A stretch of DNA of 55,384 nt from assembly GCA_025361725.1 (NCBI GenBank), contig JANYJV010000060.1:1-55384 (forward strand). The letters are read 5' to 3'. This document shows, piece after piece, positions 33,447 to 39,474 of this stretch. Source of the stretch: Acidimicrobiia bacterium. GTDB taxonomy: Bacteria > Actinomycetota > Acidimicrobiia > IMCC26256 > JAENVU01. The notes beneath the pieces were generated by a model that was not told where the DNA came from, searched no databases, and saw only the letters and a list, made by a program, of their open reading frames with translations. Numbering within the stretch: the stretch's first letter is position 1; each line of letters begins with the position of its first letter. Made by a program: the position numbers and the translations under genes.

Positions 33447-33524
33447 ATGGCTGCCTCCTTCAAGACCGGCGCACGCTACCGGTCAGCACGGTTGGCCTCG
33501 CGTGGCCACGCTCCGTCTCGGTCT

Positions 33525-33563
33525 TGGTACCAGAAACCACCGAAACGGTGGAATCTCGTGCCA
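33525..33563. repeat. 39-bp palindromic repeat, copy 1
   Basis: This element differs from the copy at 34581-34619 at 5 of 39 positions and has the same orientation. It runs from TGGTACC to CGTGCCA with the hairpin CCACC-GAAAC-GGTGG at its centre. The pair directly frames the AbiEi/DUF559 gene, 97 bp before its start. Confidence 0.75.
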
Positions 33564-33660
33564 CGTACGGCGGCGGCGCTCGTGAGTTGCTGGTGCAATT
33601 TCTCGGCGCGGTGCGGGCGAGAACATCAGCGGTGTCGCACCCTCGCGCTTTGATGCCGCA

Positions 33661-34575
33661 ATGCCCGAATCGTCCGTCGTCCGCCTCGAGGCGTTCGCCG
33701 CGACGAGATACGGGGTCTTCACCCTCGCCGACGGTGCCGATCACGCGGTGAGTGCACGCATGATCGAGACGCGGGTCGCGTCCGGGCGATGGACCCGCGC
33801 ACTCCCTCGCGTTTTCCGTGTGACCGCAGTTCCCATCACGTTCCGTCAGCGAGCGCTGGCCGCGACCCTCTGGTCACGCGGCCACGGGTTCCATATCACC
33901 GGAGCGCGACTGTGGGCGCTCCACCGCACCACCACTCGCGCGCCGCAGGTGATCGTCCCTCGTGGTCGCAACCCCCGACATCCCGGCGTCATCGTTCACC
34001 GCGCTGAGAACCTGCCCCCTGCCGACCTCACTCACATTCACGGCATCGCCGTGACGTCTGCCCTCCGGACCGTGCTCGATCTCGCCGCGCTGCTTGATCC
34101 GCTGGCCCTCGAGTTGGTGATCGAGGACGCACTCCGGCGCCAACTGTTCACCATCGGCCAGCTGCGATGGCGGGCCGACGAATATTGCGGGATGAGCGTT
34201 GCCAGCTCCACGCTCCTTCGGGAACTTCTCGACCGTCATCTCGGCGACACCGACAGCGGATGGGAACTTCGCGTGGCCCGGATTCTCACCGGCGCAGGTT
34301 TCCCCGAACCACAACGTCAGGTGCAGGTCGCGACGATCGACGGCCCGAAGTTCCTCGACCTCGGATACAACGGATTGCCACCGATCGCACTCGAGTACGA
34401 CAGCGACCTGTGGCACTTCGGCATTCGGCGCCGCCACCTCGACGCGGCGCGGCGCAACGCCCTGCGGCTCGCCGGTGTGACGGTGATCGAGATCACTTCG
34501 GATCTCGCCGCTGATCCACGGCGACTCATCACGCTGATCGGCCCCGCGATCCAGCATCTCGACGTCGCCTCGTAG
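33661..34575 (+). CDS. AbiEi-like/DUF559 domain protein, orphan
   Basis: A 304-residue protein. Residues 1-75 form a winged-helix-like AbiEi_4-type domain (TRYGVFTLADGADHAVSARM, GRWTRALPRVFRV), the middle is the AbiEi body (TSALRTVLDLAALL), and the C-terminal about 100 residues are a DUF559/PD-(D/E)XK-like fold with FLDLGYN and IALEYDSDLWH as candidate metal ligands, ending in VIEITSDL. AbiEi antitoxins normally pair with an AbiEii nucleotidyltransferase toxin; none is adjacent. Possible roles are a DNA-binding nuclease or a repressor-like orphan. Flanking palindromic repeats suggest the gene moved or was captured as a cassette. Confidence 0.78.
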   Translation: MPESSVVRLEAFAATRYGVFTLADGADHAVSARMIETRVASGRWTRALPRVFRVTAVPITFRQRALAATLWSRGHGFHITGARLWALHRTTTRAPQVIVPRGRNPRHPGVIVHRAENLPPADLTHIHGIAVTSALRTVLDLAALLDPLALELVIEDALRRQLFTIGQLRWRADEYCGMSVASSTLLRELLDRHLGDTDSGWELRVARILTGAGFPEPQRQVQVATIDGPKFLDLGYNGLPPIALEYDSDLWHFGIRRRHLDAARRNALRLAGVTVIEITSDLAADPRRLITLIGPAIQHLDVAS

Positions 34576-34580
34576 AGACG

Positions 34581-34619
34581 TGGTACCGGATTCCACCGAA
34601 ACCGTGGAATCGCGTGCCA
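34581..34619. repeat. 39-bp palindromic repeat, copy 2
   Basis: The second copy begins 6 bp after the stop of the AbiEi/DUF559 gene. It is a more perfect palindrome: GATTCCAC and GTGGAATC pair around a 7-nt loop, extended outward by TGGTAC/GTGCCA with one G-U pair. It is in direct orientation to copy 1, 1056 bp apart. Confidence 0.75.
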
Positions 34620-34694
34620 AGTCCGGGCGGCCTGACGGCGCGAACGCTCACCGCAGTCCCGGGGGTGGTCGCACCCTGCCGGTACCCTGGCGAC

Positions 34695-35588
34695 ATGGGA
34701 GTAGGAAAGCCGCGAGGGCTGTCACCGTCGTCGTTCTCGGCGTTCAAAGACTGTCCGCTCGCGTTCCGCTTCTCGTACCTCGACCGGCTGCCGCAACCGC
34801 CGTCGGCGGCCGCGAGCAAGGGAACGTTGGTGCACCGAGCGCTGGAACTGCTGATGCTGCGTGGCCCCGAGGCCCGCACAATCCCCAACGCCGTGGTGGA
34901 TCTGGACACGGCTCGCGCCGAGCTCGCATCCCACCCTGATTTCGCGGATCTCGACCTCACGGTGGACGAGTGGGATCGCTTCCACGCCGAAGCCGAAGTC
35001 CTGGTCCGGAAGTACTTCGAACTCGAAGACCCCACCACCGTGGTGCCCATCGGCCTCGAACTCCGACTCGCGGCGACCATCGGATCCGTGCAGCTACGCG
35101 GCATCATCGACCGGCTCGAGATCGACGCGGACGGCGAACTCGTCATCACCGACTACAAGACCGGCGCAGTCCCCGGCGAGCGCTACGAGATCAAACGTCT
35201 GGCCGGTGTCCACATGTACGCGGCGATGGTCGCGCACGTGCTCGGGAAGCGGCCGGTCAAGGTGCAGCTCTTCTACCTCTCGAAGCCGGAGGCGATCATC
35301 ACCTCGCCGTCCGAGCAGTCGATCACCGGCGTCATGCGCAAGACCGATGCGTTGTGGTCTGCCATCGGACGTGCGTGTGAGCGCGACGATTTCCGGCCGA
35401 GCACCGGTCCTCTCTGCAACTGGTGCGCGTACAAGCCGTACTGTCCCGCCTACGGCGGCGATCCACTTCAGGCCGTCGAGCTCCTCGGGCCGGGCCAGGT
35501 GATCGAACCAAGTCTTCCGTTGGACGCCGCCACCGGCGCGCTCGAACCCTCGACCGTCATCACCGCATCCGAGCCCGCACCCGTCTAA
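34695..35588 (+). CDS. RecB-family (PD-(D/E)XK) exonuclease-like protein with Fe-S cysteines
   Basis: A 297-residue protein of the stand-alone PDDEXK_1 type. GLSPSSFSAFKDCPLAFRF is the usual N-terminus, GTLVHRALELLML has the conserved His, LRGIIDRLEID the Asp, and LVITDYKTGAVPG the D-x-K catalytic pair. A C-terminal LCNWCAYKPYC plus the Cys in KDCP match the four-Cys iron-sulfur staple seen in AddB/Cas4-like nucleases. The ATG at 34695 is preferred to earlier starts. It abuts the PAP2 gene. Such proteins are widespread in actinobacteria with unproven roles in DNA repair. Confidence 0.88.
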   Translation: MGVGKPRGLSPSSFSAFKDCPLAFRFSYLDRLPQPPSAAASKGTLVHRALELLMLRGPEARTIPNAVVDLDTARAELASHPDFADLDLTVDEWDRFHAEAEVLVRKYFELEDPTTVVPIGLELRLAATIGSVQLRGIIDRLEIDADGELVITDYKTGAVPGERYEIKRLAGVHMYAAMVAHVLGKRPVKVQLFYLSKPEAIITSPSEQSITGVMRKTDALWSAIGRACERDDFRPSTGPLCNWCAYKPYCPAYGGDPLQAVELLGPGQVIEPSLPLDAATGALEPSTVITASEPAPV

Positions 35589-37640: not shown

Positions 37641-37823
37641 TCAAGAACGAAGCGAAACCCACCACGCGCCCACAGCCGACACACCAGCGAAGTGTGGCCC
37701 GAGCGGCCCGGCCCGCAGGACCAAGAGCGGAAGTCAAGAACGAAGCGAAACCCACCACGCGCCCACAGCCGACACACCAGCGAAGTGTGGCCCGAGCGGC
37801 CCGGCCCGCAGGGCCAAGAGCGG
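37641..37823 (+). repeat. Tandem dispersed repeat, family B, two copies
   Basis: Two 90-bp copies (37641-37730 and 37734-37823) start TCAAGAACGAAGCGAAACCC and end CCAAGAGCGG. They differ at one position and are 93 bp apart. A diverged inverted copy lies at 47753-47844. They occupy the 198-bp gap between convergent genes. All frames read through, so apparent peptides such as GPSGPARRAKSG are repeat artefacts. Confidence 0.85.
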
Positions 37824-38222: not shown

Positions 38223-39203
38223 ATGCGCAGTGTGATCGCCGCCGGAGACACAACCATCACCGTTCACGACCGACCGGTCCCCGAACCCGGGCCGGGCGAG
38301 ATCCGCGTCCGGGTCCACGGCGCCGGCCTGAACCGCGCTGATCTCCTGCAGCGGTTGGGTTTCTACCCGGCGCCGCCGGGGAGTCCGGTGGACATTCCGG
38401 GCCTGGAGTTCGCCGGGATCGTCGATGAGTGTGGGCCGGGAGTCAGCGAGCCTGCAGTCGGCACGTCCGTGTTCGGCGTGTGCGGCGGCGGGGCCCAGGC
38501 CGAATATCTGATCGTCCCGGCAGTGCACGCCGCGGTCGTGCCGGCGAACGTCGATCTGGTCGAGGCCGGCGGTGTGCCCGAAGTGTTCGTGACCGCGCAT
38601 GACGCGATGCGCACCCGAGCGCGGCTTCAGCCCGGTGAGCACGTGTTGGTGCACGCGGTCGGCTCCGGCGTCGGGACTGCGGTCGTGCAACTTGCGAAAG
38701 CGTTCGGTTGCACGGTGACCGGAACGGCTCGCACCCAGTCCAAACTCGACGACGCTCGTGCGCTCGGCCTCGACCACGCGATCCTCGCGCCGCGCGAGTT
38801 CGAACCCCTTGCGTTCGCGCAGGAGATCACCGCGAACGGCGGCGCGCCCGACGTGGTCATCGACCTCGTCGGGGGCGCGTACGTGCCGGCGGAAGTGACC
38901 GCGATCGCGCCGGGCGGCCGGATTGTGATCGTCGGAACTCTGGCCGGCGGCTCGCCGACGGTTCCCCTGCTCGGACTCATGCAGAAACGCGCCGAGATGC
39001 ATGGGACCGTGCTGCGCCCGCGATCCGTCGACGACAAGGCGGCGGCCACCGCCGCGTTCGTCGACGAAGTCGTCCCGATGTTGGCCGACGGTCGGGTCCA
39101 CCCGATCGTCGACCGCGTCTTCTCGATCGACGGCGCCGAGGCGGCCTACGCTCTGTTGGACGCCGACACCACCTTCGGCAAAGTCATCCTCGACGCCCGC
39201 TGA
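38223..39203 (+). CDS. NAD(P)H:quinone oxidoreductase, PIG3-like (MDR superfamily)
   Basis: A 326-residue zinc-independent medium-chain reductase. PGPGEIRVRVHGAGLNRADL has the Asn-Arg-Ala-Asp of the QOR family. IPGLEFAGIV has no catalytic cysteine, VLVHAVGSGVGTAVVQLAKA is the NADP-binding loop, and ALLDADTTFGKVIL is the usual end. It reduces quinones or enones with NADPH. The ATG at 38223 is chosen because homology starts there. It is followed by two family A repeats before the thiolase gene. Confidence 0.91.
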   Translation: MRSVIAAGDTTITVHDRPVPEPGPGEIRVRVHGAGLNRADLLQRLGFYPAPPGSPVDIPGLEFAGIVDECGPGVSEPAVGTSVFGVCGGGAQAEYLIVPAVHAAVVPANVDLVEAGGVPEVFVTAHDAMRTRARLQPGEHVLVHAVGSGVGTAVVQLAKAFGCTVTGTARTQSKLDDARALGLDHAILAPREFEPLAFAQEITANGGAPDVVIDLVGGAYVPAEVTAIAPGGRIVIVGTLAGGSPTVPLLGLMQKRAEMHGTVLRPRSVDDKAAATAAFVDEVVPMLADGRVHPIVDRVFSIDGAEAAYALLDADTTFGKVILDAR

Positions 39204-39221
39204 CCAGCGCCCTGAACCGGT

Positions 39222-39420
39222 TTCCCACTCATGTTCACTTCGTTCACGGGCCGCTCGGGCCGCTCGGGCCACGGGCGAGCGGAAACCATGTGGGCAAAAG
39301 GCGCCTGTCCGCTCGCCCTCTTCGGTTCCCCACTCATGTTCACTTCGTTCACGGGCCGCTCGGGCCACGGGCGAGCGGAAACCATGTGGGCAAAAGGCGC
39401 CTGTCCGCTCGCCCTCTTCG
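39222..39420 (+). repeat. Tandem dispersed repeat, family A, copies 2 and 3
   Basis: Copy 2 (39222-39324, 103 bp) carries a 9-bp internal duplication (GCTCGGGCC) relative to copy 3 (39326-39420, 95 bp); the remainder is nearly identical. Each holds a perfect GGGCGAGCGG/CCGCTCGCCC inverted repeat (39273-39282 with 39309-39318, and 39369-39378 with 39405-39414). They fill most of the 271-bp gap before the thiolase gene and relate to the single copy at 22323-22403. Confidence 0.85.
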
Positions 39421-39474
39421 TCCGCTGGACGCGGCGCTACCATCCCGGCTCCCACCTTTGCCCCGGAGGCTGAC

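Follow-up and report, generated by a model that had tools for sequence, protein, structure and literature searches.

The systems that come closest to the locus analysed here are the REPtrons, in which REP palindromes are combined with RAYT, a Y1/HUH transposase (PMC3733652, PMC2817692). Actinobacteriota are not mentioned in PMC3733652, and its authors report that a dedicated transposase was not found for the CGTC REP superfamily, so that a palindrome enzyme outside the HUH group would bear on an open question. Parts of the locus also recall the EDxHD homing endonuclease I-Bth0305I (PDB 3r3p), the AbiE type IV toxin-antitoxin with its antitoxin AbiEi (6y8q), the RecA-NDp/PafBC-regulated and DUF222-HNH genes of actinobacteria, and the Vsr / REase_MTES_1575 / DUF559 proteins, of which REase_MTES_1575 has been termed a Vsr-family REase (PMC3710099). 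The stretch of DNA that was analysed, hereafter the window, comprises 55,384 nucleotides from an Acidimicrobiia bacterium (assembly GCA_025361725.1, contig JANYJV010000060.1) and holds a nuclease gene framed by two matching near-palindromes. In our judgment, this unit probably belongs to a widespread group of small mobile elements of the chromosome, selfish and REPtron-like, that would rely on a Vsr-type nuclease in place of an HUH transposase.

As in REPtrons, the gene is framed by palindromic repeats, the same repeat is dispersed as lone extragenic copies near the 3' ends of genes, and the repeats are lineage-specific. Unlike in REPtrons, the enzyme joins an AbiEi part to a Vsr-type nuclease with no relationship found to HUH or tyrosine transposases, and the palindrome, ~50 bp long and in a host of the phylum Actinobacteriota, has no GTAG tag, its ends reading CTTGGTAC.. 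/ GAACTTCGGG.. in the sequences. The catalytic domain, by profile and by fold, and the selfish logic are those of I-Bth0305I, but the window protein carries an AbiEi domain and its gene is not in an intron, intein or phage; homing genes further differ in that here a full palindrome stands on each side, with no interrupted target or half-sites. While the N-terminal ~177 residues have the fold of AbiEi, there is no AbiEii toxin, and the AbiEi part is fused to a nuclease. With the Vsr / REase_MTES_1575 / DUF559 proteins the window protein shares the family of its nuclease domain, but not the domain architecture, and palindrome framing of such proteins was not described in the literature searched. 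Promoter spacing and the occurrence of multicopy chromosomal nuclease genes link the unit to the RecA-NDp/PafBC-regulated and DUF222-HNH genes, although the DUF222-HNH nuclease is unrelated, and insertion sequences differ in that no known transposase domain was found here. Because the unit conforms to neither the REPtron nor the homing-gene definition, and because no link of DUF559/AbiEi genes to palindromes was found in the open-access PubMed Central literature, we rate the putative element class, as read from sequence, as categorically new.

The locus consists of the following features.
33519..33569, + strand: near-palindrome that frames the gene on its upstream side, proposed as the left end of the element (covariance model R1 match, E 3e-14; repeat pair)
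33633..33654, + strand: promoter-like TGTCGCACC-N7-TTTGAT, 28 bp before the start codon (core motif; consensus from PMC5656591)
33661..34575, + strand: gene, 304 aa, AbiEi-fold N-terminal part and predicted Vsr/EDxHD-type nuclease domain (ORF listing, PADLOC, AF2 model, Foldseek, profile against PDB)
33661..34191, + strand: AbiEi-like region, residues 1-177, winged helix followed by an AbiEi C-terminal-like domain (PADLOC PDLC02228; 6y8q)
34255..34560, + strand: nuclease domain, residues ~199-300, with E202, D233, E245-Y-D-S-D, H252 and D261 (conservation; 3r3p match)
34575..34625, + strand: near-palindrome that frames the gene on its downstream side, proposed as the right end of the element (covariance model R1 match, E 8.5e-14; repeat pair)

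The preliminary description had reported two matched 39-bp near-palindromes bracketing a single gene, and this was borne out: the copies at 33525-33563 and 34581-34619 have the same orientation and are identical at 34 of 39 positions, their similarity spans 46 bp at 85% identity, and matches to the palindrome core, of which the window has two, occurred in none of 100 dinucleotide shuffles, which rules out chance for the framing palindromes. When aligned with the other copies in the genome, the palindrome has a true length of ~51 bp, with the consensus CGGACTTGGTACCAGATTCCACCGAAACGGTGGAATCTCGTACCAAGTCCG, and is laid out with CTTGGTAC as its outer arm and TCCACCGnnnCGGTGGA as its inner module, along with a spacer that varies. 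The gene starts 97 bp past the first 39-mer, as had been described, and ends 5 bp short of the second; the downstream palindrome, taken at its ~51-bp footprint, meets the stop codon. The gene has no companion: it is flanked by an LLM oxidoreductase gene in divergent orientation and by a PDDEXK_1 gene; no AbiEii is adjacent, in agreement with the earlier statement that the AbiEi part has no partner. The window had no match in Rfam. The downstream neighbour, at 34695-35585, is itself another PD-(D/E)XK protein.

In the window protein, the PADLOC AbiEi model covers residues 8-177 (E 4.2e-28), PF13338 falls just under its cut-off (E 0.0005), and the AlphaFold2 model (mean pLDDT 82) matches the AbiEi structure 6y8q in Foldseek with an E-value of 4.5e-6. 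For the C-terminal ~100 residues, the best profile match, obtained with the family profile, is the homing endonuclease domain of I-Bth0305I (3r3p, E 0.0011), with Vsr as the next match, and the fold match to 3r3p has a TM-score by target of 0.60-0.69 with a weak E-value. An alignment of 27 relatives shows no variation at D233, E245, Y246, D247 and D261 and at least 90% conservation at E202 and H252, the exact catalytic assignment being putative. The AbiEi half of the originally proposed pairing of an AbiEi-type winged helix with DUF559 is supported; Pfam did not detect DUF559 in the window protein itself but found it, along with REase_MTES_1575, in relatives. Taken together, profiles and model predict a nuclease of the Vsr/EDxHD type. 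HUH, tyrosine or other known transposase domains were absent from the protein in Pfam, NCBIfam, PDB profile and Foldseek comparisons, and a DNA methyltransferase, including cytosine methyltransferase, was not among the seven neighbouring proteins scanned. The filing of the N-terminal half as AbiEi by PADLOC would also suit a solitary restriction or abortive-infection gene, with palindromes that are terminators or recombination sites for the exchange of genes from strain to strain, and a segment flanked by two lone palindromes 3.4 kb apart is indeed absent from a sister genome (below). Such a gene is nevertheless a decidedly unlikely explanation, given that there is no AbiEii or methyltransferase among the neighbours scanned and that terminators need neither match in sequence nor turn over together.

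The motif upstream of the gene resembles the actinobacterial PafBC/RecA-NDp promoter, in that it has the spacing of the DNA-damage consensus tTGTCRgtg-8nt-TannnT (PMC5656591), with an imperfect -10 half. Its core, TGTC[AG]nAC, precedes the start codon by no more than 90 bp in 30 of 128 homologues, mostly at position -28/-29, whereas 4 of 504 control windows contain it; in a wider phylum set it was rare (2/27). In the window's genome, there are two instances of the exact form TGTCRYACC-N7-TANNNT, one belonging to a homologue of the gene, the other to a DUF222-HNH gene. It can be hypothesized that the nuclease gene is induced by DNA damage. In a relative (G002), the region upstream of the PDDEXK_1 neighbour carries a motif of the DNA-damage promoter type, TGTCACACCCTCCCGATACCCT.

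A covariance model of the palindrome finds nine strong copies in the window's genome, the two that frame the gene and seven elsewhere, and two weak matches that lie either side of a paralogue of the gene (C27). A related complete genome (G021) has 16 lone copies, most of them at or within ~50 bp of the 3' end of a gene by ORF calling. An exact-pattern search of 60 relatives returned the window palindrome only from its own genome, and the covariance model found diverged relatives of it in G002 and, weakly, in G006, from which the repeats were recognised as lineage-specific. Two congeners of G021 (G036 and G039, with assemblies 79% and 72% complete) keep lone palindromes in genomes where the gene was not found, and six of eight lone palindromes tested differ between G021 and these congeners, some of the differing sites being rearranged or retaining part of an arm. 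The preliminary description had coupled two things that would mark the palindrome as a common repeat; one was found, as the seven lone copies lie beside unrelated genes, and the other was not, as gene-less sites do not retain both copies. In G021, two lone palindromes 3.4 kb apart (L222:1001-4548; G021:C1, ~885537-889104) enclose a kinase-like and a sarcosine-dehydrogenase-like gene, so named by eye from their translations; G036 is without this segment and retains a single palindrome, which would fit recombination between the two copies.

Over 23 copies of the palindrome, almost no variation is seen in the outer AACTTCGGG or the central TCGCTATAGCGA, while the 8-bp spacers are variable and rarely symmetric. 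In 11 orthologous lone-copy comparisons, which are not fully independent of each other, the outer and central modules had 6 changes against 29.8 expected from the divergence of the flanks, and the spacers 24 against 13.2. This conservation of two modules reflects either selection or the rewriting of copies by conversion, and both would point to a sequence-specific activity at the palindromes. Conserved outer and central modules around a free spacer look, moreover, like binding sites of a dimer kept after insertion, and AbiEi-like proteins recognise inverted repeats in the promoters of their own genes. Together with the position of the upstream palindrome, which adjoins the promoter-like motif, this speaks for a regulator that does not move, in which the palindromes would be operators, the flanking pair would allow repression by looping, the lone copies would constitute a regulon and the nuclease would be secondary. 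However, the lone copies are at the 3' ends of unrelated genes and mostly not at promoters, close relatives differ in which copies they have and in whether they have the whole unit, and the nuclease residues are the best conserved part of the protein, so that we regard regulation without mobility as unlikely.

The C27 paralogue (C27:3251-4147), in the same genome as the window, has a palindrome pair of its own with quite different outer arms, GTTCACTGTCCCC..., and framing was therefore tested across the family, with a score given by the best ungapped match between the 350 bp upstream and the 250 bp downstream of each of 128 homologues. The score was at least 16 in 80 and at least 20 in 67 of these, while 16 or more was reached by 1% of 600 cross-locus pairs and by four out of 211 control ORFs, including two that themselves overlap homologue matches. 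A separate phylum-wide set, drawn later, had 15 of 27 framed, with a null of 0.25%. The geometry is uniform: for the 67 pairs scoring at least 20, the median distance is 52 bp from the end of the upstream copy to the start codon and 1 bp from the stop codon to the downstream copy, the median repeat length is 52, and 36 pairs have strong self-complementarity, against 2% of controls. The figures of 80/128 for homologues and 4/211 for control ORFs show that matched framing characterises this gene family rather than genes at large; framing repeats were not seen in roughly 40-50% of homologues (Kribbella and others). Dispersed, extragenic and close to gene 3' ends, the palindromes do look like REPs, and one could suppose that they are ordinary REP-like repeats spread by some other transposase, with the nuclease gene merely lying between two copies. 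This is very improbable, since the family is framed far above controls and with a different repeat in each lineage, which chance does not give; on the framing controls just listed, ordinary REP hitch-hiking was rejected.

The framing repeats differ from lineage to lineage and are often palindromic, those of L083/L107 (Mycobacterium-type) and L099 (Mycobacteroides) being weakly palindromic or non-palindromic. Two paralogues in one genome with 68% protein identity (L118/L141) have unrelated palindromes, and in the syntenic orthologues L112/L120 and L133/L154 the outer arm was kept and the inner module changed in both copies. Between N-terminal identity and the palindrome, co-variation over 95 close pairs was weak (rho 0.21), and the N-minus-C contrast over the same pairs was not significant; L124/L155 compared with L169/L180, and L171/L176, suggest co-variation of protein and palindrome, as single cases that prove nothing. 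In the Mycobacterium-type homologues L083, L091 and L107, flanking inverted repeats begin CCGCGAGCGTGCG; this may be a repeat that is widespread among mycobacteria.

At the window site, the nuclease gene is absent in all six family relatives and the LLM and PDDEXK genes are next to each other, with 41 bp between the matched flanks in G001 against 1185 bp in the window; in G004 a different insert separates the two genes. The simplest reading would be an insertion in the window lineage. Another element, L194 of G021, is missing at the corresponding site of three congeners, with flank identities of 97% (G036), about 90% (G039) and about 72% (G031), the flanks being separated by a 9-bp gap in G036, overlapping by 11 bp in G039 and lying 37 bp apart in G031. 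G036 and G039 have a remnant of ~10 bp of the outer arm at this site, which may derive from a past lone palindrome or from a deletion, and element-less sites could in part be deletions. The two comparisons of occupied with unoccupied sites gave no clean target-site duplication, the junctions having outer-arm remnants or being too diverged. Many framed loci are syntenic between species, implying that movement is not frequent, and homologues were not found in the viral contigs, phages or plasmids searched, which offers no carrier. As a candidate case of transfer, two homologues with 98.8% identical proteins in two species (L052 and L058) were rejected: the stretches end at contig ends, and the downstream flank is common to both.

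These sites bear on a homing variant in which passive palindromes came first: the nuclease would cut lone palindromes already in place, and repair of the break would copy the gene into them along with a duplicated palindrome. The closest solved nuclease is a homing endonuclease, lone palindromes exist where no gene was found, outer-arm remnants occur at gene-less sites, and flanking copies can match down to their asymmetric mismatches (47/47 in L116, 54/55 in L099). Homing endonuclease genes, however, normally split their target and do not sit between two full copies, and no palindrome was seen at the window-site junctions of the relatives read (G001, G002, G003); homing is thus possible but somewhat unlikely.

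Returning to the REPtron-like element, the unit would consist of a ~50-bp near-palindrome, the AbiEi/Vsr-type nuclease gene and the matching palindrome. A dimer of the protein would bind its own palindrome through the AbiEi part, and the domain similar to Vsr and I-Bth0305I would nick or cut at or beside it. Repair or transposition would then place a copy of the entire unit, or of just a palindrome, at another extragenic site, typically at the 3' end of a gene, and expression would probably be raised by DNA damage through the PafBC-type promoter. Among the readings first proposed for the locus, a captured cassette and a nuclease that recognises the palindrome are strongly supported, because the pair and gene recur as a unit and are absent whole from related sites, and autoregulation may coexist with them. 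We lean towards mobility driven by the unit's own nuclease, with homing counted in, and have less confidence in any particular chemistry. The fuller claim of a new autonomous class of mobile elements in Actinobacteriota, in which a damage-induced AbiEi/Vsr-type nuclease would move itself and lone copies of a private two-module palindrome and so provide the REP-like repeats of actinobacteria with an enzyme of their own that has no kinship with known transposases, is put forward tentatively, at slightly short of an even chance.

Actinobacterial genomes contain many orphan genes annotated as 'AbiEi antitoxin' or 'DUF559 endonuclease', and should these prove to be mobile nucleases framed by palindromes, much existing annotation would have to be read differently. 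A new DNA-mobility chemistry that pairs a Vsr-type nuclease with a palindrome would then become testable, and the dispersed palindromes of Actinobacteriota would be supplied with an enzyme. The number of homologues differs widely between genera, with 8 to 10 each, at the thresholds used, in G009, G012, G084, G147 and G175. Elsewhere in the window, near-duplicate stretches in the ORF translations at ~37690-37790 and 39190-39450, together with a match in one flank, GTGGCCCGAGCGGCCCG, suggest a further family of local repeats.
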